DNA from: Marisa cornuarietis
Lineage: Eukaryota > Mollusca > Gastropoda > Architaenioglossa > Ampullariidae
Assembly: GCA_004794655.1 (NCBI GenBank)
Contig: SMMW01000146.1
Span: 248,001-312,000 of the forward strand
Reading direction: 5' to 3'
DNA: 64,000 bases
Shown one piece after another: positions 7,453 to 49,784 of the stretch. Every line of letters starts with the position of its first letter. The stretch's first letter is position 1. Below the pieces are notes generated by a model. It saw only the letters and a list, made by a program, of their open reading frames with translations, ran no database searches and was not told the DNA's origin. The position numbers and the translations under genes are program-made.

Positions 7453-7866
7453 TCAAGAAACAGGATGATGTCTTTTGGTGTGCTTTGATTCCTCACTGCT
7501 TTCTAATGGTTGGCCAGTGGCATCAAAAACAGATTCATCGTCGGCAGCTAATTTACCATCAGAAACCATCCTGCTGTCCTTAACAGGTGCAGGAACGGAT
7601 GTGTTCTCATCAGCTTCTTCACTAATAACAATGGGATTGGACATGCTGTCACCATCTGCTTTGTACAGGCCACTGACAGTGGAAGCAAGCGATGTGCTCG
7701 CAGATGATAATGTTGCAGCAGCCTGCTTCTTTTTGGGGAAAATAAAATTTTCAGGTAGCTGAAGGCCCAGAATGGGTTCAATGTTTTCTGGAGTGAGCCA
7801 AAGGACAGAAGGAGACTCACCAGGTACATACCAGCCAGTCTTGTGGAAAAAGAGCATACCATCAAC
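7453..7866 (-). CDS. SNUPN-like: Dual snurportin-like gene, exon 16: end of domain B, tail and stop
   Basis: Acceptor ttcatttacag. It begins VDGMLFFHKTGWYVPGESPS and reaches VLWL, where the Trp sits at residue 23 of the exon exactly as in exon 8. After LGLQLPENF comes a tail of about 95 residues rich in Ser, Ala, Asp and Glu, ending HTKRHHPVS. It is disordered-looking and longer than the tail of human snurportin. The stop is TGA at 7453-7455. Confidence 0.87.
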   Translation of the reverse strand, partial: VDGMLFFHKTGWYVPGESPSVLWLTPENIEPILGLQLPENFIFPKKKQAAATLSSASTSLASTVSGLYKADGDSMSNPIVISEEADENTSVPAPVKDSRMVSDGKLAADDESVFDATGQPLESSEESKHTKRHHPVS

Positions 7867-10800
7867 CTGTAAATGAAATAACACTCATACTCATACAAAA
7901 CAATGGCAGGCCCTATACAAACGGTTGATGCTTTCTGAGTGTGGGATAGATCTCCCCCCCAAAAAAAGATATTAACAGGACTTTTATTATCAAAATATAG
8001 TTAACCAATGAGCTTATTGTCATCTTGAATCACAACTAAAATTAATACTTGTATTCTTTTATTTAAACAGGAAAAGTAAGGGCAGACCGTCATCTTTCCC
8101 TTGTTGGGGAGACAAGTATTAGAGATGGCACTTTTCTTGTGAAGGCAGTGCTGCAGTGCAGGAGAGGAGACAAACATTGCCTTTAAAAGGAAATATATTT
8201 CAAAGACCACAGCTATGATGATACACCTTTTGAAATAAAGCAGTTATGTCCCCTGCTGATTCAAGTTGGGAGTTGGGGAAGTTACTTTTCAAAACTGTTT
8301 CTGAGGTAAAGTCACAGTTAACAGTAGGCAATTAAACAAAATTATAGTAGTCACTAAAAATGAAATCATCCAAAAGAATAAAAGCTATCCAAAATGAGTC
8401 AAATCCAATATTTAAGAAATCCTGATAAGTTTGCAAAGTATATCAACCCACATGGACATGTTTCACTGGCTTGATCCCAAAAGAACCCTGTCTGAAACAG
8501 ACTGGAGTTCCTGCTGCTAAATGTACATAACAAGAATTAACTTGCTGTGAAGTGATTCAGCTTTTGCAAGCAACAGTTACTTTCCATGTAGCAGTTACAC
8601 TTCATGAATTATTAAAAAAAAGAAAAAAAAATCCAAAACACCACAAATATTTCCAGAGAACTTGCTATCAAGAGCCACAACACTTTTGTTGAGCTATAAG
8701 GCCTAGTAGTCTAGTAAAGTGAAATTTTATTATTACTTTTTGACTTAAAAAAAAACTAATATAAAGAAAAATCTATGCACAAAATCCAAGAAAACAAAAA
8801 GTTTTTTTTCTCAAGATACCATGTGCTATGGGACTGAAACTATATTTTTGAATCTACTCAAAATCCTTCTTGCATAATGGGAGCCCTTGTGATCAAGAAA
8901 GAAAATAAACAGCAAATAAAGATTTGCAAATATAATAGTCCATTTTCTGAAGTACTAATACTTTTGAAGATTTAACTTTAGCATTCTAATTCACAAGGAA
9001 TTACAAAAGTGGGCATGTTCAGGCTGGGGTATATTCATCATCTTCCACAGCTTTTTAGCAGTACTTAAAATGTTATGCTCTTCGGAAGACAATACTTCAT
9101 AAAAGTACAGGTAAAGTAAAAATTTGACTGCTAAAGAACAGCAAGGCTTGTAGAATGTTTAGTGTAAGCAGAGTGTGTACCAACCTTCCACCGTGATTTT
9201 TTCATGGCATCCATGATATCTTGCTGTGTGCAAGGAAATCGTGAGGGATTCTTGAACATGTACTGAAAAGACAGAAAACATCTATTACATTCTCAATTTG
9301 CCTGAAGCACGGGAAAAACTGCAAGGGATGGACAGCACACAAATTACCATATTTATACATATAACACAATAATCTACAACTTAATGGGATAATTTATACG
9401 TATAATATACAAAATAGTGGGATAATCTGACAAGTTATTTTAACAATTTTCCTTCATCTAATGCAGATATCTGGGTACAGACAATGACCTACAGTGCCTA
9501 TCATCACAACAGCTCTAACATTTCTCTTTAATCTCTTCTAATGGTTTTCATCAAACTACTTCATTTTCCTCCACGGTGTGTCAGAGTCTAACAGGAGAAG
9601 ACAATAAAGACTATGTAATGCCTACCTAAGGTGTGTGTGTGCTCATGTATCTTTGTGTATACTTACTGATGTTTAAGTATTTATGCAAACCACTTTAGCC
9701 TACTTTCAGTAGTGAGGGAAGGCATTCTAGGAATAAAATGCATTATTAAACAAACAAGAAAACCCCCCAAACAAACAAACAAAACCCTTTGTGTACTCTT
9801 AATCGAAGGAGCATGCCTACCTCATTCTGTTCATCCACAAGGTTTAATGGAATTTCTGAAAGCTTATCCTTGATCCAGTGAAACCGAAACTCTGCCTATG
9901 TGAAGCACAAAATCACTTAATGGATTTGTGAGATGACAAATATTTACAAAAAACAAATAAAATAAATGTTCATAGGCAAGGTGTATTTTTAGACAAAAAA
10001 ATAAGAAGAGTTTTTTGAAAAACACAGCCTCCTCCTTATTCTGCCATAACATGTACGAGAAGGTGCTTTGCTTTTAACATTTGTACTCTTGATTCTACCT
10101 CCCATTTCCTCTTGGACCACTTCTCCCTCTCACTACACTGAGACAAAGCAAAGATGCCCATGTCATATACATGGAGACAAACCAAAGATGCCCATGTCAT
10201 TTACCCTGAAAAGCTGCCAGCATCTGTCAATCCTACATTCACACATATACAGAATGATGTGAAAATGATCATACACAAAAATGTGAGACAATACAGTAGA
10301 GGGCTGTGAAGGGAAACTGCGAGGAATAAACAGTGCTCACCTCTGCCTCGTAGTAAGGCATCTGTTTCCAGTGCATAACATCAAGCACATAGAAAGTTCT
10401 CTCGGCTTTGAAATGCAGGCAGTCTAGGATGCACATGTCTGCGAGAAGACGTTTGCTGTTAAAACCTTGCATTCTCTTATGTATTTTATGTATGAATATA
10501 AACATTCTACCTGCTATAATATCCCTCAGCCAGCTGTTACCTTGCACTCACAAATACAACCATCAATGTGGAAAAAAATACGCTCAGCAATACCATTGTT
10601 TTTGATGACTTGCACGAAGTGCATGTTTCCTCCAGGTAGGCGAGACTGAAACTTTCGGTCGAGCATTCCAAGCTTATTGTAGCTACACGTGGAGCCCTGA
10701 AAAAAGCATTTAGATGCATACTATGCATTCTTCAAAGCCACCTCAAGCATATTCTTCCAACAATTTCAACATGAGAATTTAAAATCCTATATGATCACAA

Positions 10801-13800
10801 CTTCCCAACATGGTAACAAATAAAACTAAGGAAGATGATGAAACACTTGCCCGCCTGCTTGCAAAAGGTTTTGTGTGTGCAGACACATGTATCTGCGTAC
10901 ACACATACATGCACATTTGATTTATTCTTTGTATACAGTGTTCCCTTGCTACTTTACGGTTCCTTTATTGCGGACTCACTGTTTCGCGGGGTTTCAAAAG
11001 ATATTAATGTAAAATATTTATTGCAGTATTTTTGCTGTTTCGTGGTATTCCATCTAAAGTGTTTCCGCACCTGCGTAGTACGTATTGTACAGTAATGTAT
11101 CCCAGTCACTGATTGGCTCAGCAGCCATCGCATCTTGTTTTCTTTCACTGTGCGCAACTACCCCGCCTCTGCTCTTCCATTTCACACTGGCACCTGACTG
11201 TTGCGTGTGCGTAGTTTTCATCTGCGGTGTTGTGTATGCTATTTGTGAAATTTTACATGTACAGTATGGGAAAAAATATTATGGGAAAAGGTTATGTATA
11301 AGAATGTGGGGAGGGTTTATAAAAACTTAAAATAAAGTATAACTACTAAAATAAGTATAGCATCCCTACTTCGCAGAAATTCACTTATTGCGGGTGGGTC
11401 TGGAATGGAACACCTGCGATAGGTGAGGGATTACTGTTCACACTATTTACTGGGCAAAGCATTCACCAATTATTTATTTAACCAATATTCAAAACACTTT
11501 CGATTAGGTAGTGGCATTCAACATTTAGTTTCCAATGTATAATTTTGATACGTGATGTTGTAAGGTGTACGGAAATACAAAAGTTAAAAATAACGGTTTC
11601 CAGTATTGCTAGAAGCAGAGATATTCAACTTTAAAGACCAGCCTGAATGGTTTGAGTTTGTTTGCAGATATTGGTAGATATAGGTGATATAAACCTAACC
11701 CGTAAATTTCAGCCTCCCAAAACCCATGCGTTAATTATCTGCTAGCAAAGTATGTGATTCCCACTGGCGATCAACAAGCGCCTCTAACAGTGTACTACGT
11801 CATGCTAGTACACCATTCACAACATTGGTAGCTGCCAACACCAAACGGGAAGAGAGAATGAGCAACAGTCTAGGTTACTTGGACCTTGAAAGTCCGCATT
11901 TCTCGTGCTTAAGTAGCAGTTTTTCAGAACCATGAGAAATGCAGACTTTCATGGTGATGATGATGATGATGATGATGATGATGTCGATTTATATTGCGCA
12001 GGTATTCATTCAAAAGAATGCTCATTGCGCAGCAAAAACAGAAGAGAAGAAACAAATAAAAACAGGAAAGTAAAAAATAATAAAGACAGAAGTGGTGCTA
12101 GGTTGTTTAAGCAAACAAATGGGTCTTTAGTCTTTTTCGAAACGTGGTTGCTGAGGTGATGGTGGAGAGTGACAATGGCAGAGCATTCCACAGCTTAGGT
12201 GCCGCGTTTTTGAAGGCCCTGCCTCCAGTGCGCTGCTTGTTTGTGTCTTCCACTGCAGGGAGACAGAAGCGTGACTGGGAGCCAGAGCGCAGGGCACGTG
12301 ACGGCTGGTAAGGAGGAACTACCTCTTGCAAATAGTCAGGAGCAGTTTTGAACATGCCCATCTGAAATGTCGCTCATTCTCTCTCTGTTTGGTGTTGATG
12401 GCCAGCGATGTGAATGATGCACTAGCATGACGTAGTACACTGTTAGAGGTGCTTGTTAATCGTAGGTGCGAATCGCAGCGGATAATTAACGGATGGGTTT
12501 TGGAAGCTTAAATTTACAGGCTAGTTTAATATCGCCTATATCTACCAATATTTGCAAAAACGCAAACCATTCAGGGTATTTCCCCAAACTTTGTACGATT
12601 GTCATATTTTTTAACTAGTATTGATAACAATGAAAACATTTGGCAGCTATAGGTTGCTCTTAGTTCTGAAAAACTTGATCAGCATATCAGCATTATTGGT
12701 TAACATTAAACATAATAATCCCATATAAAAAATATGATGGGAATTCACTTCAAAAGCATATTTGGGGACTTTAGAAACAAATACTAATGTATTAGTAATA
12801 ATAGTAAAGTTGATTTATATAGCACTTTAACCTACCATTAAAGGCTACCTCAAGGCACTTTACAAAAAGTAAGAACACAAGGACATAAAAAAATTAATGG
12901 AAGCTGGTCTCAAAGCAAAGAGTTCATTGTGTGCCTGGTTAGAGTGAAGGTACTCATGTTTAGAAGGTGAATGCCATCTGCACAGATGTGGTCTGCAGCC
13001 TTGCCATTGCATAGAATCTTCGATAAGTCAATTCAAGTTAAAAATCTAGCTGACCGTTATTATGCAGTATGGAAGCAAAACTAAAATCTTTGGTGCACCT
13101 GCCTATCTTTTGGAGACAGAAATGTTTTATTAACAAAATCTTATTAAAGCGTCACACTAACACTCACTGCAAACTTAGCTCCCAAGAGATACAAAACATC
13201 AGCCATATCAGATCTGCCTATTAGGGTGTGGGTTATAGAAAGAACAGGAAAATGTGTTGACCATTTCACCCTCAACCTCTGGGCCTATCAAACATTTGTG
13301 AAATGGACAAAATGAGTAGTGATAAAGAATTTCTAAAACCAAAGTGGCACGACTAAAGGAGTATTTGTTGCTTTTTATTTTTTTTAGCTACTGTGTGTGG
13401 CATTTTCAATTTGATCTATTTATCCTAAGCCCATTATAACTAGAATACTTACATTGTAAGCTACTACTATTCTTCGTTTAGCAACAGGGCAGATAACTCC
13501 TATCCATTCTTCAGAAAATCTTTCAGGGATCTTTTCCATAATGACAGACATCATCACCTGAAGTAAAGGCAGAAAAACATATAACTTTAAACAGCATACC
13601 CTATTTTGATATTTAGCAATTACATTACAAAACCAACTTTGTCTCAGGTGTAGGTGCTTAGTCACAGCTAAAATTTTATAGGTGACTGAGTGTGATAAAA
13701 AAACATCTATATTCTTATTGGGTTTGCTCACATGATTCTAGTAAACTACTTCTGTAGAGGGTTCTCTTACATCATGTCTGTCCCATTCATCCCAGTTTGG

Positions 13801-16800
13801 TGTGTTGTCAATTTCCTGGCCCATAATCTGCTGTTTTTCAATGTCATAGTCACCCTGAAAAGAAAAATAGTTTGTACGAAAGTTATACACATTACATGCG
13901 AATCTATAAAACTGCATGATTGTGTACTTTTATTTCATATTAGCCAGGGTACCTGGGTTTGCCTGGGTGATTTCTGTCACTAACTCTTCGAACTATGATT
14001 TTACTATCAATTTTCAATCACTTCTCTTGGATCAAGCTTAGTAAGGTGCATTCTTCCTATTCCCCATCTCCCTGCTACTCTTCCTCTCTTTGTCTCTAGT
14101 AGGACTCCTTCTCAAATTACAACACATTTATTCAGCATAAAATATGATGCAGTTTCATCTGTATAACACTGTTTCATATGGACCCAGCAATGACATTTTA
14201 GAACTTCAAAAAAACAAACAAACAATGAAACAATGTACATGTGCCAAACATAGTTTAGGGCATTTTGAAATCAAAAGAAATATTCCTCCCATATTTGGTT
14301 GGGATTAGGCAAACAGTATGATATACTCTGATGCCACAAAATCCCTCCCACCTATCCACTCCCTGGTTTATTTATGACACGATGAAGAGGTGACAACAAA
14401 ACATCCATATTGTAATAACTGTAAATAGTGGGCTGCATTATGTCTGTAACTGTAAAACAGCTAGTATTGGATAAAGTCGTATGACTACAAAAAATTGATG
14501 TTTTTCTACTTTAAAGGGAAGAACTTTGATATGGGGTAAGACGTGACGTCATAGGCCGGTATATGTTATTTTGTCAGAGGTTTGGGGTAAGGTTAGGGTT
14601 AGGTTTAGTTTATTAGGTACATTTGGGCAATTGAGTGGAGGGAGTAGACGACAAATGCCGCAAGCCATATTTGTTATGGCCGTCGCGTCTTACCCCATAT
14701 CAAAGATGTACCCTTTAAAGTCCACGAGAATGTTTCCAAACAAATACGTTAGCAACGACAATAGTCTTCGTTTTATTTTTACTCTTATTAATAAATGATA
14801 GTCCATGAGTGTGAAAGAAATACAAACCTGCTGTGTTCGCTTTCGCTTTTTTCCCATTTCAAGCAATAATTTTTAATATCAAAATCCTCTTTTCAAAAGA
14901 AATATGTGATCACTTGACTCTTTGTAAACAAGCAGGCGTTCTCAGTTTCATTTCAGTATTCAGGGCTTTCGCGGGTAAACACCTTACACGGCCACCATTT
15001 TGAACAGACTAATAGCTACCGACTAGGTCAAAATAGTTTCTCATGCGCTTTTTGGTTTTATTATTCAGTTTAAACGCGACAGTGAGCACTGTTGTTAACT
15101 CAAACGCACACCGCCAGAATGTCTCCCACAAGGTTTGTCGATTACAAGCCACAGACATCAAGCTTCTCACAGGAAGCGCTATTTGAGAATTCAAGCAATG
15201 TGCGATCTCGTGCGCAATGAGAAGAGAAACTGAATAGCGATTAGTGAGTGACAATGACAATTCTTTATTAACGAGGGAGGAAAGAGACGAAGCCGACATA
15301 CTCCGGCCCAGGGATGAAATCGAGTTGCACTGTTCGATCTTACTGGATTTTTTAATTTTATTTTAAGTGGTGTTGGCGGTTTTTGGATTGTGTTTTCGTA
15401 TTTTGGGCTTTGGATTAACCCTAGGCTAATAATAGACTGTACATAAAGATACAAATAGCACCGCAAAACCACGCATTGCACATCGTGTACACAGCCAAAA
15501 CAACCTATCTTCAGTCCTAAATAATTAACACCTCTTCCAAAATGCTGTTTGACATCTGCAATGACTGGTCTTATCACGACAACACCATATTGCCCACTGC
15601 CTACCCTGCTTTACAGCTACTTTTTCACTAGTAAGATCTCTGACATTCGATCATCCCTAGAGTCGATGTCAGCACCTAACAACGTCTCTTGTGATGTTCT
15701 CCTGCGATGCTTTTTAATGAGTTTTAACCAGCCCCAGAGGCTGATGTAATGGCGATCATTCTAAGAGCCCTGCTAACAACTTGCCAGTTTGACCCAATGT
15801 CCACAGTCCTTCTTGAATGCTTAGATGTTTCATTTTCTGCCATTACAAATATTGTTAATGTCGGTTTGTCAACAGATGTTTTCCAATCTTTGTTTAAAAG
15901 TGGCCTGGTGATGTCAATGTGTTAAGCAACTACTGCCCAGTTTAAAATTTGCCTTTTCCCTTGAAGATAATTGAGAAAGTGGTTTTGAGAGTTCTGGCTT
16001 ACTTACAGGAACACCACCTCATCCCTCAGGCTCAGTCGGCATATATTGACCTTTTCACAGTACTGAAACTACTCTCATCAAAGTAACCACAGACACATTA
16101 TCTGCCCCCAACTGTGGTGATGTTTCCCCCTTAACTCTGCTTGACCTGTCTTCCACGTTTGTCAATAATGACCATTCTTTAATCCTTCAAAGACTTTGCA
16201 TCCTCTTCTGAATTTCTGGATCTGTACTAGCATGGTTCAACTCCTAATTGATAGGATCCAGACTGTGTTTGTTGATGGTCAAAGATCCCACTCTGCTCCC
16301 CTCTTTTGCAGGGTCCCCCAAGGCTCAAAACGTGGCCCCATTCTGTTCATTTGTACACAAAACCACTTTCATCATGCATCCAGTCTCATTGTGTTCTCAT
16401 CAATCTTACGCTGATAACATGCAGCTGTACCACCCTACGCTGCTTTTAACACCACTGAATCCTGTATTAGTGACATCAAAGATTGGATGGCATAGAACAA
16501 ATTTAAACTTAACGATGATAAAAACAGATGCTCTCTTCTGCAGGAGAAGAAGATATCGTTCATAGCTCAGTCCACTCAAGTATGTCAAGGTGGGCATGAC
16601 ACCAACATCACCTTTATGCCGTCCATCCCAAATCTCAGATTCATCGTTGCTGCAGATATGACACTTATAAGTTACAGCCATCTGTCAGTCTGCCTATTAT
16701 GAACTTTGTAAGATCAGCAACATCTGCCACATTGTCTCTACAAGCACTCTTTTCTGTGCATTTGTTCTATTTCAGCTTGATTATTGTATAACTCCTTGCT

Positions 16801-22338: not shown

Positions 22339-22372
<34 letters not shown>

Positions 22373-26276: not shown

Positions 26277-26318
<42 letters not shown>

Positions 26319-26727
26319 TAAATATATGTGACCCACCACCACAGAATGAGTCTTAAGTCCGAAATTAGAGATTTTGCAAATTGTATATTTTTAAAATGTA
26401 CAGGTTTTGACGTTTTTGTTTGACGTTAAAGTTTTTTTCCTAGTCCTAAAATTGAATGAGTTATAAAAGATTGAAGTGTGCAAGTATGATGATACAAAGC
26501 TGACCTTAATCATCTTTCTGGGCTTCTACTTCGAAGCTGCTCTGTGTGACTTAAGACTCAGTTCGTGGGTCCCATATACACTTCTTGATCTTTCTTTTTG
26601 CACATATTACAATTCCACTATAAAAACAAACACTGCTAATGATATGAATGCAAGACTTGATGAAGATTAAATCTGGGTAATTCTATGGTCATTGATGGGT
26701 TGAGAGTAGAGAACCCTTAACACATAA

Positions 26728-26763
<36 letters not shown>

Positions 26764-29700
26764 TCATCAGTTTTTTTTCTTGTCAAGACTATTCGTTTTA
26801 CTGATCTGCCTTCTGATTAGTGCTCTATGCCATTAGTACTTCATGACCACCTTTCTGTCAGCAACTGCTAAATTGTTATGTTTAGAAAACAATATGGGAA
26901 CTTTGTTATGTAGCAGGTGTAGGTGACTTGGTGGTGATTAACCTGTATAAGGTATAAGGTCTACAGGAGTGTACAGACTGAACCTGTTTGGACTCTTGGC
27001 ATATACTGGCACACAAGAGCATGATGAAAAGTTAGGGCCTGCAATAAGTTTATATGAGCACAGTTGAGATATGACAGACATGTCTGAGATCTTATTGGTG
27101 ATGCAGAGAAAGAGGGAAAGCAAAATTAAACATCTTGAAACCTTCACAATCTTGACAACGCCATGCTGAAGTTTTGCTGTGGAGGAAATGCAACTGTGGC
27201 ATTATTGCACCTTCATAGTACATAGTACATATGCTGGTTTTGAGTGTGTGGGGAGAAAATCTGCTTATTCACACCCTGCCTCCAATCACTCAGTTACAGT
27301 TAACTTCAAAATGTAAGTAAAACACTTGACTGGTTCCAAGTTTGTACAAGCCACTGTAAAACTCTTAAACAGTTATTTAATGCTAGCAACAGTCTACTTT
27401 ACATCATAGATCATAATTGCTTAAGCAATTACAAACCAGTTTCAAACCTGTCCTTTCTGTCTCAGGTTCTGGAAAAGATTGTTCTTTCCCAGCTTATTGT
27501 ACACATGGAGCAAAATCATCTTCTTAATCCCTTCCAGTCACCTTATAGAAAAGCCATGGTACTGAATCTGCACTTCTAAACGTTATAAATGTTTTACTCC
27601 TCAGTGCTGACGAGCATCATTTCTGGCGTTGTTAGACTTGTCAGCTGCATTTGATACTGTAGATCATTCTATACTTTTACACAGACAAGCACTCTTTTGG
27701 TATTCATGATGTTGCTTTATCCTGATCTTGATCCTATCTTATGGACCAAACCCAGACTGCGTGTGTGTGTGAGAATGGTGTTTACTCAGATGCTTCTGTC
27801 CTGAGATATGGTGTCCCGCAGGGATCTGTACTGGGTCCAATGCTTTTTGTCATATACCTCCCCTCTGATGTTATGTCATACCATGTCATGTCTGTCATGT
27901 GACATACTGATGATACACAGCTTTATGAGTCAGCTCTACTTACTGTACTCTTTGGACTACTGATACAGACACAAGAATGCATAGATGACATAAAGTCCTG
28001 GATGCTCTAAAACAGACTGCAACTAAATAACAATGAGACTGAACTGCTACTTACTTCTCTCTCTCTCAGTCTCTGTCTATAAACAACTCAACTATTTCTT
28101 TCTCCTCCTCTGTCCGCAGTTTGGGTGTCATTCTCGATCAGTTTGACATTTCATCAGCATATTTCTCATGTCTGTAGAACTGCTTACCTTGAACTTTGTA
28201 GGATCAGTACCATTCCTCACTATCTCACCACTGATGCAACTAAAACTCTAATCTGTGCCTTTGTACTGTCGAGGATAGACTATTGCAATTATCTTTTAGC
28301 TGGAATTCTCAAGTATCTTCTTGACAGACTTCAAAGGATCTACAATAACATTGCTCGCATCACCTGCTGACCATCTAGATATGAACATATATTGCCTATC
28401 ATAGGCTCTCTTCACTGGCTGCTACTCATGGACAGTATAGCCAACAAGCTTTCCACTTTGACTTACTCTGCTGTTTCTGGCACTGGTTCTCGGTACCTCG
28501 ACGAACTATACTCCCACCTATATGCCCGCACAACTTCTTCGGTCATCTTCTGACATCAAGCTTCTGCGAGTCCCACTAAGGCAAAGATGTATGAACAGAG
28601 GTCTTTCTCCTACCAAACCCCATCAACTTGAAACGGATTACCTATCAGCCTTTGACACTTTGATTCTTTTACCACCTTTAAGTCTAAACCTAAGACATAC
28701 CTTTTCAGAATGACTTCACTGTGACCCTTTCTGACCATGAGCATGCATAACGTGTGTCTATAATTTACTTTGTGTATGAGTGGGTATATGTTGTACAAGT
28801 GAGCAACTCTCTTATATGTGAACATAGGTACATGATTGTTGATGATTTAGTCTGTGTATGATTAATGTAAAGCTCTCTGAGCAAATCTTTGGAAAGGCGC
28901 TATATAAATCCTCATTATTATTATATAGGATGTATGTCTGGCAGGCTTTAAGAGTACTTGGGTGTTAAACAGTATTTCCATGGCTGAAATCCTCTAATGA
29001 TCACTTAATGCAATAGCCACAGACATCCGTTGTGAGAACTACCTATATTCTTATAAACACAAAAGAATAAGCGTAATCTATACTCATGAATGAATTAAAG
29101 CTCAAGTGCAAAATACTAATGGTAACTGAGGTCAGCAGATAAAACGGAAGTAAACAGAAAACATACTTACAGGATTTGTCTGTGAAATTTTGAAAAGAGA
29201 AGTTGTTTTGGCCAGTTTTTCATGCATGTAGTGATAACGGTATTGAGTCTGCAAAACAAAATTCAGCTGGTATAAGCAAGAATTTTTTAAAATCCTTTTG
29301 AGCTAATTCTTTTTAAAAATTACTCCTGCGCCAGAGAATGAACGCAACATTAAAACAAACAAAACAAAAACAAAAACAAAGTAACAAATAACATTCATTT
29401 AAGCAAAGTAATGTCTCTGAATTTCATTGATTATTACTCACATCTTGTCTGTATAATGACTCCCCATTCCAGCAGATGACGTCCATAATATAATAGACCT
29501 GCTGTTCCTCATTGTAGAGACAGTCCAAGACTGAGCAAACTGAGCGATCTGCAATGTATCAGAGACACAATGCCTACTTGATAAATAACAGCATAGAAGC
29601 TTGAGATACATCATAATTTCAGGTCTTTCATTCAGAATCTTCCCCTTTCCAAACTTCCCCTCCACCCTTGGACTTAGAGCTACGCCATACAAAGACTGCT

Positions 29701-32700
29701 GCATTTTAACCTCTTTACAATCTTAGCAACACTCTTGCTTCTTGTTATTTGGTCTCTTAAAAAGGGCACTGACTGTTACAAGAATAATTGCACTAAATGT
29801 TCACCTCTACAGCACTATTCAGACCTGCATCCCAGAAGACAATGGCCATGATGTTCTATTTAGAAATTGCTTAATCTGCACTTTTTTAAATTAATGGAAA
29901 AGCACTGATGCAAAAATGTTTTATAGACCATTACAAAAATATTTACTATCAATGCAATGAAATTTCCATTCTGATTTAGTTCAACAAAATAAAGATTGTA
30001 AAAGAACTGAGAGTAAAACATTTAGCATAAATGAAGATGGCATACCAAGCTGCTGGTAAGAAAGAAAAGTCCTATCTGGAGGTCCCTTCAGTTGTTGGAA
30101 AGTGGAATGTTAGAAACTGCATTTATTCTGTAGCCAGCATTTTGTGAGTGCAGTGGCCATACCCTGTCCTTTGTTGCCTTACCTTTCCCACCCTTATATG
30201 GATTCCTACCCATTCAAGCTGACAGCTGGGTCAACTGAGGAAAGTATGCTGTGCTACAAGGGTATCAATTGCTGGGTCAACTGAGGAAAGTATGCTGTAT
30301 GGGATCATACAAGTGTGTATGCTTCTGGCCTCAGACAACAGAACTCTAATCATTCACCTCTCTGCTTCCTAAATACAAAAATGAAAAAAAGGTCAACCCC
30401 TAACCTTTGTGGATCATTCGGTAGTGAGTTGTTAGAGACCACACTCTTCTCTGGGCTATTACCAACCCAACCCTCTATAGAGTCAGATACCCATTTTTAA
30501 CAGCTAGATTGACTGGGGAAAGTTTACTATGTGGGTTCAAACCAGCATGCCTTCATGTTGCCCATTAAAATAAAATGAAACAAATCTGTAAAGTGCATTA
30601 CACTTATGCATTATGAGTACAATTACAAGTGTAATCATGCATGTAATGCAGTACAAGCGCAGGCAGTCACACATGTAATGCTGAATGCCTGCTATTTGAT
30701 TATCTATGGTAATGGAGAATGTCTGTTATTTAGTCACCTTCAATTGTGATGAACTGTAGTAGGTCTTATATTGTTTCATATATGTGGTTTCCTGTGTTTT
30801 AGGTCTTTGACTGTGTGCACCATTCGGACGTCATAATTTTTCAAGAAAAATAGACATCATAAAGAGGCAGTTAAGCATGTCTGTGTGAAGCTGCAAAAAA
30901 AAAAGACCCTCATAAACTATCTGCAAACAACAAAGAATAACATTCTCGTTCTACCATCCAGTGAACAAGCTGTGTTATCAATGTCTTCATGCAGTTCCTA
31001 AAACAGTGTACTCTTTCCTGACTTACACCTTTCCGACTGCTATCCAACATCAACTGTCTTTACTCTCCATCTCTGTGCAAAGGATTTATTACATCAATAA
31101 TGCAGCATACCTACAATATCAATAAGCCACTTGCTATATTTTAACTCTGTGATACAGCATATCTGTTTCTAGCAAATACCACAACAAATACCTGAATGCT
31201 CGACATTGTGGGAAAGATAACGTACCTGTTACCTGAGAAACTCTGGCACAGCTTCCTGCTGGAAGATGCGTGTCATGTGTACAAAGAAGGTTGCCATCCA
31301 AGTCATATGCATGAGTAGTATTCTAAAATAAAACAAATGGAATAATGCAAAGTAGCATGTGGTTAGCAATAAGGAAATATAAAAGTTTATATAAGGACAT
31401 TTCGACATTTCAATTTACATCAGCTTATATCTGCATTTATTATTTTCGCTTCTTTAAAGAGTAGACTGAATGTAACATTACCTTATATCCTGTTCCTAAA
31501 AGATACTAGTTCTGTCATTCTGTGTGAATAGCTTAGTGAAATCTATGAAATACAAGCCTTTAAACATTACTATTCTCACCTGGGGTTTAGAAAGAGGCTC
31601 AAGACCTAATGCCCAACAATATATGATCTGGGAATTGTGTTATTAGCATATGCTCGAAGATCTTGCATGGGGTGCAGCTTTCAGACATATTAGGTTAGAA
31701 TTATGGTCAAACCACAGGCTTGGTGAAACAGAAAACTCATTAAAAGTTCACTGTATATTTATGTAACAAACTAATGACAACATTATGAGCTGGACTGGCT
31801 CTTAACTCACTAGTCTCATCCTCTGGGAACAGGCTTTCGCTTCCAAATATACTTTAATCATATTAAAAAAATGTTATAAAAAACTCAATTAAGGTAAAAC
31901 TGTAGTTTATGTTTTTCTATGTAGATAAATATATGCAAAAATCATTATTTCTTTACCCTTATTTGCTTCAAGCTTTTGTCATAGTTACTGTAACCGGACT
32001 GGACTGGTCGCTACACTCTACACTGCCCTAGCGCCATAAATCAGTCCGTTCCTCTTTTTAGTTCCAGGGGAGAGGACGGAAGTTCCCAAGGAGAACTTTA
32101 TTTCTATCTAAAGTTCTAGCTCTCGTTAGTCGGGTGCACGTTGTCTCTAATACTTCCTTGCGTTGTGTTCTTTTTTCCATCTATCTACGGCACCCGCACT
32201 CAGCCGACCTTGGAGTCCACAAAAGACCCTGCTTTTACTCTAGATCAAAAGTGTGTTCTCTGCGGTGTATCGCTCAGCTCCTTGATCTTCGTGTGTGTTC
32301 TGCTGCTTGACTCGATTACAATCGACGACACGATTTCTTTCTGTCTACCGATTCTCATTCGTCTCGTTCACACGACGAGGACACATACATCACGCTAGCA
32401 TACGGACTAAGACACTTACACAAGTGAGTAAGTTTCAAAGACATAAAGTTTATTTACATAATGCATACCTATAACTAGTAGTATCCCTATCCTAACTTGC
32501 CTACTTAGCTAGTATCCCTATCCTAACTTACCTACTCAGCTAAATCCTAACACCTAACTCCCTGGGGTGGGGGGGGGAAAGGTGGGGTGGAGCTACGAGA
32601 GCCTCTTTTCAGCGGACCAAGCTACCTTGCGGTAGGCTTGATACTTCTCTCGCACTCGAGTGGGGGGCAAGGTTGGGGAGGTAGTTGAAGTGACGAGAGC

Positions 32701-35700
32701 CTCTTTTCAGCGGACCAAGCTACCTTGCGGTAGACTTGACACTTCTCTCGAACTTCGAACCACCAGTTTACTGCTCGTCCAAGCAGGACCAGTTGCCTTT
32801 CGACAAACTAGGTCCAGAGACTGACTTTTCTCTGGTATTTATACTGAAATAGCTGGGTGCTACGTCACCCATCGTGCGGTCTGCCTGCCTCGCGATGCTC
32901 CGCTCGCGCAACCCAGCGTGGGGTGGAAGGGGGTGCAGGGTAGAGGGAAGAAAGCACCGTCAGCGATGCAAGCTATCTAGCGATCCCGCTACAGTTACAT
33001 ATACAGGAAGGTATTTAAACTGGATGTAAAAAACCTGCTTTCATGAAGTAGACTACTACACAAAACATGATTCTATCATCACAGCAGTCCAGAGTATCAT
33101 ATTATGCCAAAAGGGGTTTATCAACAAGTATGTTGTCTTCATTATCAGAAAGCATCTCGATAATAAAGTTCAAATACTTCTGATGTACTCTTCTAATCTC
33201 TGACTTGAAGAGAAGTGCCTATAAGGCCTAAAAATTCATATTTACTACCCAGGAACAACCCTCAAAACAATGCCAAGGAAGGTAGCTGCTAAAAAAATTG
33301 ATCCTTTAATCCATATTCATAGTTATTACCCTTAGTCTTTTATACGGAATGGAATAGCGAACTATTTAAAAATCCTTTGTTACCTCTCTTGCAGACCAAT
33401 CTCTGTACTCACGATCTTCAGCAAATGCACTTACTGAGTGACTCGTATGAGCTAAGGCTGGTTCTTACTTTACAGATTAAGCTTTTGCACCATCTTTATA
33501 AAATTTATGGCCCGTTTAAAATTCATTGTAGATCATACAGGAAATGCTGTTATTTGCCATTTTCACAATCTATATTTTTCTAACATTTGTTTAATTGTGT
33601 TTGACCTCTTGACCCAGCATATGTACTGTATCTCTTCCCTCTTCAACCCTCCCCCCTCTCTCTCCTCTCTCTTTCTTTGTAATGTACATTGTGTCTTTAT
33701 GTTGCTGTCAGTCAGCTTAGTGTTGTCTTTAGATCAGGCGTCTATGTCAAAATCCAGCTTCAATGTCAACTCTTTATTACTTCTGATAGCTATGTATTTG
33801 TTAGTTATCTCTAATTGTAATTATGTTTTCCTTGTCTCTCTGTCAGCTAAGCTGTGTCAACGACTGCACAGTTGTCTGTAATCAAGACATCTTCCTTTCT
33901 GTGATCACATCTAGGTTCTCTCTGTAGTTACACATGCCTGAAATTTAAATGTTTCCAGCTTTTTTGAGACTAATGATGTAACCAAAAGCAAGCACATCAA
34001 TGCTTCTTGTCAAATGGCTCCTTGACTGTCATTACAGTTGGGCTCAGTATGTTTATGGCCCTAACAGGGCTTGTCACCTATATCCTCTGAGCCTGTCATT
34101 CCAGTCTGGCTGTCAGTTTATGGTAATAACAGGGCCAGTCACTTACATCTGCCGCAAGCAGCAAGCATCGGGTGCCTTCAGGGCATGGTATACATAGCCA
34201 GTTGCGGTCTAGATCGCTGGGTAGTTCTGCCGTAGACGAAACATTTACAGGAAGCATTATCTGTAAAAAGTCATACCACATAAGTATATAAGCAGCCCGT
34301 TTTCATGATTAAAAACTGGAAAACAAAGACTTAGATGTCTTATTTTTTCTTCTGAAATGAAAATAAGTTTTCATTATAACTGTTTCAAATTATGCATTTT
34401 TTGTTAAGAAGCAACATCATAGTTGTGATGTTTCTCCCTTAACTCTTCTGGGCATGTCTACTGCATTCGACACTATTGACCACTGTATGCTCTTCAAAAG
34501 ATGCTGCTCAACACCCTCTACAGAACTTCTGGAGCCACACTAACATGGTTCAATTCCTATCTGACTGATAGGACTAGGCTGGGTTTACTGATGGTCAAAC
34601 ATCAAGTTACAGCTGCCTGTCAGTCTTCCTATTATAGGCTATGTAAGATCAGCGCCATCTGCCATATTCTCTCTACACGTGTTGCCAATGTCTCAAGCAC
34701 TGAGTGCATGCTCCTTCAAGAGCATGATCGTGCCCTATGTAAATCACATTTATTAATATTATAATAATAAAAAGTACGCTGTACAGAGGCAAGCAGATAC
34801 TGTTTGCTTAATGATCTGAGATACAAGCGATTATTACTACTGTTTGTTGTTTGAAGCAGAACGTTCCCATGAGTTTTGGTTAGTGCATGTCTGGAAATGT
34901 TGCCAAAGCACATAAAAACAAGCAAAAACATAAAATAAAAAAATAAAATTAACACTTGTGGGCTAAATGCAGAAATGCTAATGGTTTTCTAGAATGTCCC
35001 CAATGTCTGAAACTAACAAAATTTGACAATGATTATCAGTTAGGTAACTGAAAAATTATACAGACCAGATATCTTGAGAGCTGTTCAGGAAAAAAACGGC
35101 CTAGATTACAACTTCAGAAATATAATCAGATGAATAGAAAGAAAGCACTGTGGAACCCCAAGCAGACAGGTGTGAGAACAGCCAAAGCATAGAGGGTGGC
35201 ACACTGGATCAAATGAGAAAAGGACTAACCCATAACAACCCATGCTGCCAAGCCTGACCCAGGGAGAAATGGGCAGTGGCATGTCAGGAGAAAAGTCAAT
35301 GTCGGTCCTACAGAAGTAGGGAGGAAAATCTAAACAGCAAAGCCCACTGGGCCATCAGCAAAACATAGCTGCCTGAATGCTTGTTTTCTCCCAGATAGCA
35401 AAAGGCAATAGCCTTTGTTTGGCGTGCAATGAACCATTGTGTGTCTTGCAAATGTAAGCCTTGTGTAGTGGAACAAAGCAGGACCTTGTTAATAGCGTCA
35501 AATTTACTTTCAATCTGAGCCTAGAAGATCTATGCAACATTTGGGTCTTGCAGCTTTTCCACGTTCAAGTCAAAGCAACTTCAGGGGTTGGCTGTGTGAT
35601 GGTTTGCCATAAGCTTCAACTTCAGGCTAATTAAGACAAGGTCATGGTTGCTGCCTATGTCAGCGCCTGGATATGACGTAGTTTTAGCCTTGTTGATTTG

Positions 35701-37598
35701 ACACGCCTTGGCAGGAGGATGACATCTATTTGATTACGGACCATATTATCACAGTAAGTTGCCATCCTGGATTCCTTGTGGGGGAGGATCTTTGCAAACT
35801 CTAATCAAGGGCCCCTGTTCCAAAGAATGTGGAGCATAGTAGCTGTGTACTGACCTGGCCACTAAATATGTTATACATTGTTGCTCCATGTTCAGCACCC
35901 ACTCTCTGTGCATTTAGTTGTCTGATTGCTTCTACAAAAGAGTGCAGCAACTTGTGGTCCTCAAATGGCTTCATTCTGGAAATACAGACACAGAGCTGCA
36001 CACACGAAACAGCAAAGGCTGGCCTAAGAGAGGGAAAACAAAGATGGTATTTTACTACACTCACTGACAAGATACATTGCTGCCATTACCAAATAGTGAA
36101 TTTCCACAAGCTGCATATAATTAAAAGAAAGTGTTCATTTTATACCATCCCCATCTAATACAAAAATTAATCATTGCCTCACATATTTTCACTGCATCTC
36201 TCAATAATGGCAATACTAACAGATAGCATTATCATTATCAGTAACACAGATGCAATACATTAAACATTTAAAGCAAATTTAAAGACAAGTTTAATAATGA
36301 AACATTCTAAATGAAAGTGTAAGATCACATAAAAAAACAAACAGAAAATAGTTACAGCTACTAAAATGGTCCATTAACTCCAGTTAACTGGAGTACTATT
36401 TATTTAAGACAAATCCTAAAGAGCAAAATAAAATCAAGAAAATGATTTGCTGAACTTATTAGGAATATATGCCATTCATTTGATGTTTAGTGCTGCAGAG
36501 TAATTCATTTCAAATTTCAGTTTAGAAAATCTGTAAACTGTATGGAGTGATTTTAGAAAGCATGCTTGTTGAAGTCTGACTTTATTAACAGCTGGCTGTA
36601 ATATGCGATAGCAATTGTCTGCCTCCTTATCTGCAATACTTACTGATGACTATTAAGACATTTTCACTCTTTGGCAAACCATATCATCCTATATACCTCC
36701 CAAAAGTTTGTGAGTGATTATTCTCTTGTGCTGAACCTAAACTATGGATCAAACTCAGTCATTCTTGGTATAAACCATTCAGACTATTTCAAGTTTCAAT
36801 AAGGTGTTAAAGACTTTCTTGGTTTAAAAATTTCTCTTGCAACATTCCATTGTTCTATGTAGTCCATGGCTAAGATGTGTGTGTGTATGTGTGCATTTCA
36901 TATTCATGACGTGGTATTAATGCTAAAGGCAGAGAGTCTGGTAATGCAGAGTACAAAGAGACTGGCCACATGCTGAGATTTCATGCTACACAAATATCAT
37001 TTTATTATTATTTATCAGTATGTGCTAAATATACAAATACTGTGGTGTAGTGATGTTAACAGGGGATTTTTTTTGTTGAAATTTTGACTCTTTGAAATCT
37101 CATAGTTGTTTTGATGGTATGCACAGATCTGACACATACTAATAAAATTGCACTGGTTTAGAAAGTGGAACTGATGCAAATTGGTACACTGGATAATATA
37201 AACATCGTCACTGACTGTTGTGGACCGGGACCATTATTCCAGATTTCTTAGGAGTATTTCTGTTGTCGACATGAGTATACAATTTTTCTTTTGTTTCATT
37301 TTTTTAAGAGTATAAGTTCTTTTTAAGAACATAAATGTGGCTGTTGGGTACTAAAGAGTTTTAGTCCTGAGGTGTTTAATTATTTCACTTTAATCCGTGA
37401 AAATTTTTGGAATTGTTACATTGACTGCTTTTCTAAAAGGGCTTGTCGAAGTTGCGCCATTTCATTAGGTTTGGCAGTTGACAGCAGATCCTGAAGATTT
37501 TGCTTGTCCACTGAGAACCCGGTGTTTGAGCTGAGGTCAAGCTCAGCAATCAGCTGAACCATCAGGGCTTCCATGCTTGATTGCCTATCAAGAAACAT
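7453..37598 (-). CDS. SNUPN-like: Gene with two tandem snurportin-type m3G-cap-binding domains (16 exons)
   Basis: Snurportin-1 binds the 2,2,7-trimethylguanosine cap of spliceosomal U snRNAs and brings snRNPs into the nucleus. Sixteen GT/AG exons join in frame (2,142 coding bases from the first ATG, about 713 residues). Residues 1-100 are a novel N-terminus; cap-binding domain A covers about 101-300; a basic linker about 300-423; domain B about 424-613; and a Ser/Glu-rich tail follows to 713. Both domains keep the family landmarks: a CP..(K/T)R strand, LP(A/G)G, (V/I)LDC, a Tyr-Tyr/Val strand ending (D/C)V..W, (Q/E)(Y/F)R(Y/F)H(Y/W) and GLLFYHK/GMLFFHK with the downstream Trp. Exons 3-8 and 11-16 correspond one to one with identical phases. 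No importin-beta-binding region is evident. The first exon and the promoter are uncertain. Alternative: two adjacent genes, the upstream one ending at 24826. Phase agreement between exons 8 and 9 favours one gene. Confidence 0.68.
7867..9184 (-). other. Intron 15 of the dual snurportin-like gene
   Basis: AT-rich, with A and T homopolymer runs. I see no gene or element here beyond a short CCCCCC/AAAAAAA tract at about 7955. Confidence 0.6.
9185..9262 (-). CDS. SNUPN-like: Dual snurportin-like gene, exon 15 (domain B)
   Basis: Acceptor ctgtcttttcag, donor AAG|gttggt, 26 codons, phase 0. It reads YMFKNPSRFPCTQQDIMDAM, matching the KNFPCTPESLCDVL segment of snurportin. It is exactly as long as its partner exon 7. 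Confidence 0.84.
9821..9895 (-). CDS. SNUPN-like: Dual snurportin-like gene, exon 14 (domain B)
   Basis: Acceptor cttcacatag, donor GAG|gtaggc, 25 codons. It reads AEFRFHWIKDKLSEIPLNLV, equivalent to TDFRFYWMHSKL. An acceptor four bases further in (gcag) would break the frame, so the earlier AG was chosen. Partner of exon 6. Confidence 0.83.
10341..10438 (-). CDS. SNUPN-like: Dual snurportin-like gene, exon 13 (domain B)
   Basis: Acceptor gtcttctcgcag, donor GAG|gtgagc. It reads MCILDCLHFKAERTFYVLDV and then MHW. This is the ILDC...YVLDVM.W signature of snurportin and the partner of exon 5. Confidence 0.87.
10594..10696 (-). CDS. SNUPN-like: Dual snurportin-like gene, exon 12 (domain B)
   Basis: Acceptor gcttttttcag, donor AATG|gtattg, phase 1. 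It reads GSTCSYNKLGMLDRKFQSRL and then PGGN. It matches GSTSAYTKSG and LPGGN of snurportin and keeps the Lys equivalent to human K144. The frame also stays open through to a second gt at about 10541, but only the gtattg donor joins exon 13 in phase. It is the partner of exon 4, with the same phase and the same split Asp. Confidence 0.82.
10936..11436. mobile_element. Non-autonomous pogo/Tigger-like DNA element
   Basis: The left end CAGTGTTCCCTTGCTACTTT and the reverse complement of the right end, CAGTAATCCCTCACCTATCG, form imperfect terminal inverted repeats. Inside them the motif cactgtttcgcggggt is mirrored by cttattgcgggtgggtctgg. This style of end (CAGTnnTCCC, then TATCGCGG-like blocks) is typical of Tigger/pogo-derived MITEs. 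The left flank is TA and the right flank is TT, so the TA duplication has decayed or the boundary is off by one. No transposase frame is left. It lies in the intron between exons 11 and 12. Confidence 0.6.
11642..12575. mobile_element. Fold-back element: two ~210-230-bp inverted arms around a LINE 3' end
   Basis: The segment 11642-11870 (starting CCTGAATGGTTTGAGTTTGT) matches the reverse complement of 12362-12575 along its whole length at roughly 80% by eye, including gtgtactacgtcatgctagt and cgttaattatc. Between the arms lie an (ATG)n tract and the end of a non-LTR retrotransposon reading frame. The structure could be a MITE with long inverted repeats that gained a LINE, or an inverted duplication. 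No clear target-site duplication was seen. Confidence 0.65.
11950..12361 (-). pseudogene. 3' end of a non-LTR retrotransposon (LINE)
   Basis: The minus-strand frame at 12107-12361 encodes a reverse-transcriptase C-terminal segment with the usual landmarks PYQPSRALRS, GGRAFKNAAPKLWNALPLSL and FRKRLKTHLF. This is the conserved end of ORF2 in CR1/Rex/Jockey-like LINEs. Downstream on the same strand comes a tail that ends in an (ATC)n microsatellite at about 11953-11982, a common 3' tail type. The 5' part is missing because the frame ends exactly where the right inverted arm begins. Confidence 0.75.
12795..12880. repeat. Short LINE/SINE tail remnant
   Basis: The text agttgatttatatagcactt, continuing with accatt and ctcaaggcactttac, resembles the 3' tail of CR1-like LINEs common in invertebrates. 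It is only a fragment, with no reading frame. Confidence 0.35.
13453..13557 (-). CDS. SNUPN-like: Dual snurportin-like gene, exon 11: start of cap-binding domain B
   Basis: Acceptor ctttacttcag, donor AAT|gtaagt, 35 codons, phase 0. It contains IPERFSEEWIGVICPVAKRR, very close to [20 protein letters not shown] of snurportin, including the Cys and Arg of the cap pocket. It is the partner of exon 3. Confidence 0.87.
13771..13854 (-). CDS. SNUPN-like: Dual snurportin-like gene, exon 10 (acidic connector)
   Basis: Acceptor tttcag, donor GAT|gtaaga, 28 codons, phase 0 both ends. It reads GDYDIEKQQIMGQEIDNTPN and then WDEWDRHD. It is acidic and comes directly before domain B, as the acidic stretch does in human snurportin. 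The weak DY...Q resemblance to the end of the IBB region is not enough to claim one. Confidence 0.65.
14509..14720. mobile_element. MITE of 212 bp with ~40-bp terminal inverted repeats
   Basis: The left end CTTTAAAGGGAAGAACTTTG, continuing ATATGGGGTAAGACG, matches the reverse complement of the right end (CTTTAAAGGGTACATCTTTG, then ATATGGGGTAAGACG). Between them is a short telomere-like run ggttagggttagg at about 14589. There is no coding capacity. The target-site duplication is unclear. It sits in the intron between exons 9 and 10. Confidence 0.75.
15705..17303 (+). pseudogene. Decayed non-LTR retrotransposon (LINE) reverse transcriptase
   Basis: Broken plus-strand frames carry successive landmarks of a CR1/Rex-like ORF2. 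These are a FDPMSTVLLECLDV-type segment (about 15790), an AWFNS/LTDRTQTV-like segment near 16210-16270, DGQRSHSAPLFCRVPQGS at about 16275-16328, a catalytic box now reading YADN instead of YADD at about 16407, and the C-terminal trace YGHQSFSYCAAK at about 17090-17130. The 3' tail (tttataaatcaagtttattattctt) ends at about 17300. Many stops and frameshifts are present, so it is inactive. It lies antisense inside an intron of the snurportin-like gene. Confidence 0.75.
17576..17760 (-). CDS. SNUPN-like: Dual snurportin-like gene, exon 9: basic inter-domain linker
   Basis: Acceptor cacctaattag, donor AGA|gtgagt. Two leading bases complete the Asp from exon 8, then 61 codons with no stop. It is rich in Arg, Lys, Tyr, Asn and Gly (SDYRKRQYYKDNHG; GYNNYGHNKP; FNRRRHRAKTQR). 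The composition suggests a flexible, positively charged segment that could contact RNA or act as a nuclear localisation signal. That is inference; no family was recognised. It could instead be the early exon of a separate downstream gene. Confidence 0.6.
17761..24908 (-). other. Long intron 8 of the dual snurportin-like gene
   Basis: This 7.1-kb intron separates the end of domain A from the linker exon. It contains A-rich tracts (about 19440-19520), a (TG)n run at about 19772-19789, a (CA)n run at about 22341-22369 and a probable solo LTR (listed separately). About 20.0-21.7 kb is moderately GC-rich for this window and may be old retroelement sequence, but I could not identify it. The stretch cagtaatcccccac at 18901 resembles the end of the pogo-like element at 10.9 kb but has no partner nearby. 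Confidence 0.5.
23253..23680. mobile_element. Probable solo LTR, 428 bp
   Basis: The segment begins TGTAGCCG and ends GTCTACA, so it has TG...CA ends, and it is flanked by CAAC on both sides (23249-23252 and 23681-23684), a 4-bp target-site duplication. Inside are a TATA-like box (ccttatatacccat) at about 23478 and a GC content far above the surrounding intron. No internal retroelement region is attached. The short duplication makes this less certain than the solo LTR at 32 kb. Confidence 0.5.
24909..25134 (-). CDS. SNUPN-like: Dual snurportin-like gene, exon 8: end of domain A and start of linker
   Basis: Acceptor tgttccag. It begins MSGLLFYHKDAYYTPGLTPL and then GCW, matching VDGLLFYHK...STPLVGW of snurportin. 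The Trp (residue 23 of the exon) is the one that stacks on the trimethylguanosine base in human snurportin (W276). The exon then runs into an Arg-rich stretch. Donor TCAG|gtaact gives phase 1 and completes an Asp with exon 9. If this donor is not used, the frame stops at 24826-24828 and domain A would be a separate protein. Confidence 0.78.
25815..25880. repeat. 20-bp tandem repeat
   Basis: Three to four copies of a unit containing gacagaaatgtcaactcat, within intron 7. Confidence 0.7.
26087..26164 (-). CDS. SNUPN-like: Dual snurportin-like gene, exon 7 (domain A)
   Basis: Acceptor tttggttgcag, donor CAG|gtatgt, 26 codons, phase 0. It reads YTFHLLTSCSCMALTLARAI and is the most diverged exon of domain A. 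It keeps the length of its partner exon 15 (78 bases) and the position of the FPCT-type Cys. Confidence 0.7.
26279..26315. repeat. (TG)n microsatellite
   Basis: About 18 uninterrupted GT units next to the left end of the MITE that follows. Confidence 0.9.
26327..26574. mobile_element. MITE of ~248 bp with TATA target-site duplication
   Basis: The left end TGTGACCCACCACCACAGAA, continuing TGAGTCTTAAGTC, mirrors the right end, whose reverse complement is TGGGACCCACGAACTGAGTC followed by TTAAGTCA. TATA flanks both sides (26323-26326 and 26575-26578). The interior is AT-rich and non-coding. The element lies in the intron between exons 6 and 7. Confidence 0.7.
26727..26763. repeat. (AATC)n microsatellite
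   Basis: About nine tandem copies of AATC (caatcaatcaatcaatcaat...), in the intron between exons 6 and 7. Confidence 0.9.
27423..28928 (+). pseudogene. Decayed non-LTR retrotransposon (LINE) reverse transcriptase
   Basis: Plus-strand pieces in shifting frames spell a CR1/Rex-like ORF2: NYKPVSNLSFLSQVLEKIVL at about 27429-27490, LDLSAAFDTVDHSILL at about 27640, YGVPQGSVLGPMLFVIY at about 27810, a catalytic box reading TDDTQLY at about 27907, HISHVCRTAYLELCRISTIP at about 28150, and the tail aaggcgctatataaatcctc followed by a short ATT repeat to about 28925. Stops and indels make it inactive. It lies antisense within the intron between exons 6 and 7 of the snurportin-like gene. Confidence 0.8.
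29171..29248 (-). CDS. SNUPN-like: Dual snurportin-like gene, exon 6 (domain A)
   Basis: Acceptor tttgttttgcag, donor CCT|gtaagt, 26 codons, phase 0 at both ends. It reads TQYRYHYMHEKLAKTTSLFK, corresponding to TDFRFYWMHSKL of snurportin and continuing to a conserved NP at the exon end. Confidence 0.82.
29442..29548 (-). CDS. SNUPN-like: Dual snurportin-like gene, exon 5 (domain A)
   Basis: Acceptor gatacattgcag, donor GAT|gtgagt. Two leading bases complete an Asp split from exon 4. It encodes VLDCLYNEEQQVYYIMDVIC and then W, a close match to the ILDC...YYVLDVMCW core strand of snurportin. This is one of the clearest exons for family assignment. Confidence 0.85.
29549..31225 (-). other. Intron 4 of the dual snurportin-like gene
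   Basis: No gene or clear element. A direct duplication of gctgggtcaactgaggaaag lies at about 30224 and 30270. A loosely palindromic stretch around 30595-30655 (gcattacactt ... catgtaatgc) may be a remnant of a small inverted-repeat element. Confidence 0.5.
31226..31322 (-). CDS. SNUPN-like: Dual snurportin-like gene, exon 4 (domain A)
   Basis: Acceptor tattttag, donor ACAG|gtacgt, phase 1 at the end. It encodes NTTHAYDLDGNLLCTHDTHL and then LPAGS, aligning with the GSTSAYTKSG and LPGGN parts of snurportin. The Lys of that loop (human K144) is Leu here. A nearer gtaaca (seven bases earlier) is also a possible donor, but only the gtacgt site gives the right phase for exon 5. Confidence 0.75.
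31989..32993. mobile_element. Solo LTR, ~1,005 bp, with 5-bp target-site duplication
   Basis: The segment starts TGTAACCGG and ends CCGCTACA. GTTAC precedes it (31984-31988) and follows it (32994-32998), a perfect 5-bp duplication as left by LTR retrotransposon integrase. Internal repeats are visible. A unit with gagcctcttttcagcggacc and aagctaccttgcggtag occurs at about 32600 and again about 99 bases later, and a roughly 32-bp unit (agtatccctatcctaact) is doubled at about 32481-32530. A TATA-like tatttatact lies at about 32837. No gag/pol region is attached. It lies in the intron between exons 3 and 4. Confidence 0.78.
32999..34146 (-). other. Distal part of intron 3
   Basis: AT-rich with no recognised gene. 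A 124-codon plus-strand frame at about 33507-33881 is hydrophobic and T-rich in a way expected from base composition. I do not call it a gene. Confidence 0.5.
34147..34260 (-). CDS. SNUPN-like: Dual snurportin-like gene, exon 3: start of cap-binding domain A
   Basis: Acceptor ctttttacag, donor GAT|gtaagt, 38 codons, phase 0 at both ends. It contains ELPSDLDRNWLCIPCPEGTR, matching the snurportin strand pair around VPSDLGQEW and CPVGKR. The Cys and Arg of that strand are kept. A short insertion (SSTAE) precedes the PSDL motif, and the tryptophan that precedes it in human snurportin (W107) has no counterpart. Confidence 0.82.
34415..34770 (+). pseudogene. Internally deleted LINE fragment
   Basis: Plus-strand text carries a reverse-transcriptase trace, STAFDTIDHCMLF at about 34450-34495 and LTWFNSYLTDRTRLG at about 34540-34580. 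It then jumps directly to a later region (SSYYRLCKISAICHILSTRV at about 34622-34690) and a tail ending in (ATA)n at about 34770. The catalytic YADD part is missing. It sits antisense in the intron between exons 2 and 3. Confidence 0.65.
35540..35800 (-). pseudogene. Decayed retrotransposon endonuclease fragment
   Basis: On the minus strand two shifted frames read MVRNQIDVILLPRRVKSTR and then SYPGADIGSNHDLVLISLKL. These match the end of an APE-type endonuclease domain of RTE/CR1-class LINEs, where R.QIDYIL and GAD.GSDHDLV are conserved. The catalytic SDH box reads SNH. One frameshift lies between the two pieces. It lies in the intron between exons 2 and 3 in the same direction as the host gene. 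Confidence 0.6.
35855..35975 (-). CDS. SNUPN-like: Dual snurportin-like gene, exon 2
   Basis: Acceptor gtctgtatttccag, donor CAG|gtcagt. One leading base completes the Ile codon split from exon 1, then 40 codons beginning MKPFEDHKLLHSFVEAIRQL. It is a likely helical segment in front of domain A and is not recognisably conserved with snurportin. The phase fits both neighbours. Confidence 0.6.
35976..37419 (-). other. Intron 1 of the dual snurportin-like gene
   Basis: AT-rich. No element or gene recognised. Confidence 0.6.
37420..37598 (-). CDS. SNUPN-like: Dual snurportin-like gene, exon 1 as visible (from first ATG)
   Basis: The first in-frame ATG (MFLDRQSS, 37596-37598) is followed eight codons on by another (MEALMVQL). 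The frame stays open upstream to a TAA at 37698-37700. It passes through a Cys-rich stretch (CVVCVSGSEGSCTC) that could be coding if this is really an internal exon with an acceptor at about 37681 (tatttttcag). The donor is AT|gtaaca, phase 2. The sequence is Leu/Gln/Glu-rich and helical-looking (LRQALLEKQS) and does not match the IBB region of snurportin. No family recognised for this part. Confidence 0.5.
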
Positions 37599-49780: not shown

Positions 49781-49784
49781 CAGT

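Follow-up and report, generated by a model that had tools for sequence, protein, structure and literature searches.

What does a locus encode in which two snurportin-type cap-binding domains follow one another, given that snurportin-1 is regarded as a one-domain import adaptor for spliceosomal particles? This question is raised by a stretch of 64,000 nucleotides from the snail Marisa cornuarietis (contig SMMW01000146.1, positions 248,001 to 312,000; hereafter the window, numbered from its first base). An original prediction, made from the letters alone, had described one gene in which an internal tandem duplication produced a dual cap reader of previously undescribed layout. Our analysis of the same sequence leads to a different arrangement, to which we give about even chances: two tandem units that can also be spliced into a 696-residue protein, predicted to yield both this fused protein and a free second unit, with an importer turned into a tethered cap holder.

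Sixteen exons encode two cap-binding domains

Splice sites and phases rebuild 16 in-phase exons on the minus strand between 7453 and 37574, and all 15 introns are GT-AG. The exon count of the original prediction is thus recovered, its paired exon lengths (114/105, 97/103, 107/98, 78/75 and 78/78) are exact, and a split Asp codon does close the second exon of each block (G/AT and G/AC). Exon 1 (37420..37574) encodes the N-terminus of unit 1, a snurportin-like segment followed by a degenerate importin-beta-binding (IBB) region, and agrees with the N-terminus of the Pomacea canaliculata model P0002; an in-frame ATG also lies at 37598. By alignment, exon 2 (35855..35975) holds the remainder of the degenerate IBB region and a linker. 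Cap-binding domain 1 begins in exon 3 (34147..34260), runs through exons 4 (31226..31322, whose last base is the G of the split Asp codon), 5 (29442..29548), 6 (29171..29248) and 7 (26087..26164), and ends in exon 8 (24909..25134), which carries the Trp276 equivalent and the donor GTAACTGC; when exon 8 is left unspliced, the frame reaches a stop at 24828-24826. Exon 9 (17576..17733) is a linker exon, and exon 10 (13771..13854) starts the shared part of unit 2, with an internal ATG at 13824. Domain 2 occupies exons 11 (13453..13557), 12 (10594..10696, again ending in the G of the split Asp codon), 13 (10341..10438), 14 (9821..9895), 15 (9185..9262) and 16 (7453..7866), the last of which supplies the domain end with its Trp276 equivalent, a C-terminal tail and the stop.

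Two acceptors are available to exon 9. From ATG 37574, the fused frame has 705 residues with the upstream acceptor, CACCTAATTAG, and 696 with TTTTTCAG, 27 bases downstream, in place of the 713 residues first predicted. The exon 8-9 junction reads S-D-Y in both P. canaliculata models (P0001 and P0002), and we therefore favor the downstream site; exon 9 probably starts at 17733 rather than 17760. At the other end of the gene, P0002 opens with MVHEQSN ahead of MEALMV, where window positions 37574-37598 (minus strand) give MFLDRQSS. An additional first exon may lie upstream of exon 1; an exact-pattern search for one that codes for the MVHE of P0002 found none.

Both halves of the frame (blocks 1 and 2) are snurportin-type cap-binding domains, as originally proposed. 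PF21974 matches them with E-values of 1.4e-46 and 2.4e-54, far beyond the Pfam cut-off, and human snurportin-1 in the PDB is matched at 8e-39 by block 1 and 1.4e-44 by block 2; the domain E-values rule out a chance chain of open reading frames (ORFs). We take L104, W107, R129, K144 and W276 to be the cap-pocket residues of snurportin-1. R129 and W276 are present in both window blocks and in all 30 aligned domains. K144 is retained in window block 2, as in all 10 of the aligned block 2 rows, and is absent from window block 1; the L104 position holds Leu in block 1 and Met in block 2.

A second start and a separate end for each unit

A profile search (25 matches) returned seven models with block 2 alone (P0019-P0025, among them Nucella, Littorina and Babylonia proteins), every one of which starts with MGKRK. 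When the minus strand between 24900 and 13700 was searched in three frames with a loose basic-start pattern, the sole match was ATG 14857, which opens MGKKRKRTQQ. A stricter pattern of MG plus five basic residues, chosen after this match was known, occurs once on the two strands of the window and never in 3000 dinucleotide-shuffled copies of the intron. The match defines exon 9b (14828..14857, minus strand), with which the coding sequence of unit 2 can alternatively begin; this exon has the donor GTTTGT and enters exon 10 in phase 0. Against a profile of the seven MGKRK N-termini, the exon 9b start scores 96.5 bits, the fused start 89.3 and the shared part alone 85.9. Read from exon 9b, unit 2 has an MGKRK-like start, then PNW..RHxVMMSV and one domain, the makeup of the one-domain MGKRK family; these proteins share the start and domain of unit 2 but are separate models of 258-363 residues without block 1.

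Read beyond its donor, exon 9 runs into a stop (17557-17555) at which unit 1 can terminate alone, with 384 residues. Together with this stop, the conserved exon 9b start implies two units in tandem that begin and end independently and can also be fused by splicing. As worded, the description 'one gene' is therefore not supported, since unit 2 has a conserved start exon within the exon 9-10 intron and standalone counterparts in P0019-P0025. Indeed, the locus comes near the contrary case that the original prediction had itself named, that of two neighboring single-domain genes.

Fused and separate relatives in snails and bivalves

A whole-protein search gave 18 matches, including fused models from two other snails. 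P. canaliculata LOC112553693 isoform X2 (603 residues) has two domains that are 90.5% and 90.7% identical to those of the window, and differs by a start in exon 3; Babylonia areolata LOC143296870 (674 residues) has the same layout, with domains 38.2% and 61.8% identical and a longer Gly/Gln-rich linker. Both are likely orthologues of the window gene. A further P. canaliculata model, C0Q70_20715, is fused with a broken first domain. The two domains can thus share one protein, and this much of the original interpretation stands; one gene, internal duplication and an undescribed layout do not, as stated.

In the whelk Nucella, the halves are separate models, ACOMHN_048862 (P0006) and ACOMHN_048860 (P0019), both from 2125092-base contigs; from contig size and tag numbers, we infer that they adjoin each other. 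Nucella (P0062) and Littorina (P0056) also carry an ordinary snurportin. Nucella lapillus has at least five snurportin-like models, namely the ordinary P0062, two of block 1 type and two of block 2 type (P0005, P0006, P0019 and P0025), which points to gene-family expansion. The Littorina saxatilis block 2 model P0021 and ordinary snurportin P0056 come from contigs of equal size (111777080) and may share a chromosome. In whelks, block 1 is followed by a stretch with abundant Gly, Gln, Tyr and Asn (P0003 residues 326-440; P0006 tail); in Babylonia it is 20% Gly and 17% Gln over a range chosen by hand, and the window's stretch is shorter and less rich. A GEMIN8 match in the P0005 tail (E 0.0057) fell short of the cut-off and was set aside.

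The two-domain layout is not confined to snails. We scanned 152 fetched proteins and the window with a home-made domain profile, after a broad search with 313 matches, of which 120 were listed. Besides the window, two domains were found in P0001, P0003, P0004 (from Potamilus, first domain short) and P0039-P0047, and in P0002 with a broken first domain; P0010 and P0038 have one domain split in two. Ten of these (P0004 and P0039-P0047) are of bivalve type, for example Crassostrea virginica LOC111131337 and Pecten maximus LOC117335093, and all ten have a precomputed match to the IBB family PF11538. Like them, the spliced window model places two PF21974 domains in one ORF, here a predicted frame of 696 residues. 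The bivalve proteins, however, keep the IBB and a near-canonical first domain, whereas no IBB was detected in the window protein. In P0047, which groups with Mactra in the tree, 712 codons of a 2485-base contig are read without a break, suggestive of a spliced transcript. Single-domain bivalve models exist as well (Solemya P0063, 376 residues; Argopecten P0069, 409 residues). These bivalve and snail models place the layout already in databases, as uncharacterized proteins without a descriptive name; among the matches listed in the open-access PMC literature, we found no paper on mollusc or two-domain snurportins.

Origin of the tandem

Did the second domain arise from the first within this gene? 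Blocks 1 and 2 are 25.5% identical. In the tree, each block forms one group (100/100 each), and the blocks are not mutual nearest relatives: block 1 sits in a poorly resolved region populated by ordinary snurportins, and block 2 joins five second domains from oyster, scallop and mussel (88/91 and 98/95 in two trees). The second domains of freshwater mussels and clam are placed elsewhere, and no single group unites the nine from bivalves; a clade of all nine with block 2 was not recovered and was not rejected by the approximately unbiased (AU) test (p 0.364). A single clade of blocks 1 and 2 was likewise not rejected (p 0.294 with and 0.189 without bivalve second domains), and both blocks have long branches (1.3 and 1.28 changes per column). 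The internal duplication first proposed is thus not supported by the tree, and it is not rejected.

Exon borders are less informative than they first appear. The internal borders of both blocks fall at human residues 137, 166/168, 201, 227 and 254, four of the five at the identical residue and the other two residues apart. According to an excerpt of PMC10899626, however, the region of the last coding exon in human starts at residue 254, so this border was inherited from snurportin genes generally, and we rejected matched borders as proof of duplication. We favor, as a preference and not a demonstration, a tandem that predates caenogastropods.

An N-terminus with a degenerate importin-beta-binding region

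The excerpted text of PMC6488578 gives the CRM1 export signal of human snurportin-1 as MEELSQALASSFSVSQD. MAFFT places IAELDLSSNTGFSVD of the window opposite this signal, and an alternative register, MEALMVQLIAELDL, was dropped in favor of the MAFFT one. In the IBB region that follows, the window protein has about half the canonical number of basic residues, most of the arginines that contact importin-beta are gone, and PF11538 gives no Pfam match at an E-value of 1 or better. The equivalent of Arg55, for which R55Q is listed as a human disease variant, is Gly in Babylonia and in P0006, Leu in P0005 and Pro in the window. Block 1 thus appears to retain the snurportin N-terminal layout, export signal before IBB, yet with most of the importin-beta-contacting basic residues missing.

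A proposed role for the joined pair

If the locus is indeed a pair of fusible units, unit 1 would have descended from a complete snurportin. Since most of the importin-beta-gripping basic residues have been lost from its N-terminus, the fused protein would carry no cargo along the usual import route. Domain 2, which keeps R129, K144 and W276, would be the likelier cap reader, and domain 1, without K144, could be a weak reader or a partner. The fused pair could then hold or sort RNAs with a trimethylguanosine cap, and import would be left to a separate, ordinary snurportin; capped RNAs bound by a protein without a recognizable import handle would likely be held, not carried into the nucleus.

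Human snurportin-1 (SNUPN; PDB 1xk5 and 3gb8), which resembles the window domains in cap-binding fold, sequence and the exon border near residue 254, differs in having one domain and an IBB, whereas the window protein has two domains and no detected IBB. The human protein nevertheless suggests a plausible use for a covalent pair: the excerpt of PMC10899626 describes cytoplasmic oligomers formed via the C-terminus, and SNUPN muscular dystrophy variants that impair them. The linker-joined domains could be a permanently joined counterpart of these oligomers. More speculatively, and with considerable doubt, a two-headed snurportin of molluscs may have become, in caenogastropods, a tethered cap reader that no longer imports and whose second head is freed by an internal start, so that the locus sets the balance of held-back and imported capped splicing RNAs. 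If molluscs do keep two-domain forms with and without the import handle, cap reading and importin binding would be separated in nature, and the mollusc forms would put the purpose of snurportin oligomers to a natural test.

Weighing the alternatives

Three fused models from two species, with a fused frame that continues across the linker in both, count against two ordinary adjoining single-domain genes, as do the bivalve two-domain snurportins and the unbroken frame of P0047. Such a gene pair, in which the public fused models would be prediction joins or rare read-through, is in our judgment rather unlikely, though it deserves serious weight: unit 2 has its own start exon, the stop of unit 1 lies just 3' of the exon 9 donor and is followed by an AATAAA at 17288 (such signals are common here), the Nucella halves are modeled separately, and intronless block 2 ORFs occur on 1.4-2.2 kb contigs (P0020, P0022 and P0023). 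At the opposite extreme, the locus could be a single gene that makes just the two-domain protein, as first proposed, with exon 9b a relic. The phase agreement of all exons and the fused annotation among relatives fit this picture, but exon 9b has an undamaged ATG, its five basic codons and an in-phase donor and resembles seven one-domain starts, and we consider a single gene of this kind improbable.

The arrangement of two fusible units leaves the ligand to be considered. The domains may no longer read trimethylguanosine caps, binding instead 7-methylguanosine or unmethylated caps or acting solely as protein scaffolds, a possibility that we rate as unlikely and still worth keeping in view. Neither block keeps W107 and block 1 lacks D255, so perhaps neither domain binds the trimethylguanosine cap; moreover, K144 is missing and S105-E106 altered in block 1, and the branches of both blocks are long. 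Set against these losses are the invariant W276 and R129, the constant K144 of block 2 and the snurportin fold that both domains retain in predicted models. Several other observations, like the pocket losses, weigh against our preferred reading. The two models have mean predicted local distance difference test values of 65.3 and 66.7, with the domains themselves higher. The N-terminal profile match exceeds 100 of 100 shuffles, but its hhalign probability is 33%, and the window has Ser at export-signal position 8. Finally, the 120 listed of the 313 matches include no ordinary snurportin under the name Pomacea or Babylonia, and the division of labor is therefore seen only in Nucella and Littorina.

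Other features of the window

Upstream of the snurportin locus, an exon-like ORF at 55292-55717 (minus strand) matches Spaetzle (PF16077, E 2.3e-07, passing the cut-off) and weakly NGF, and is predicted to belong to a cystine-knot growth-factor-like gene. Three adjacent long ORFs at 45245-47524 (plus strand), one with a DUF4371 match (E 6e-17) and two without a Pfam match, look like transposon pieces, and a hAT dimerization piece at 38436-38777 (minus strand; E 0.0017) falls short of the cut-off. Long tandem arrays occupy 49783-50458, 56020-56974 and 62961-63599, with units of 57/103, 35 and 43 bases, respectively.
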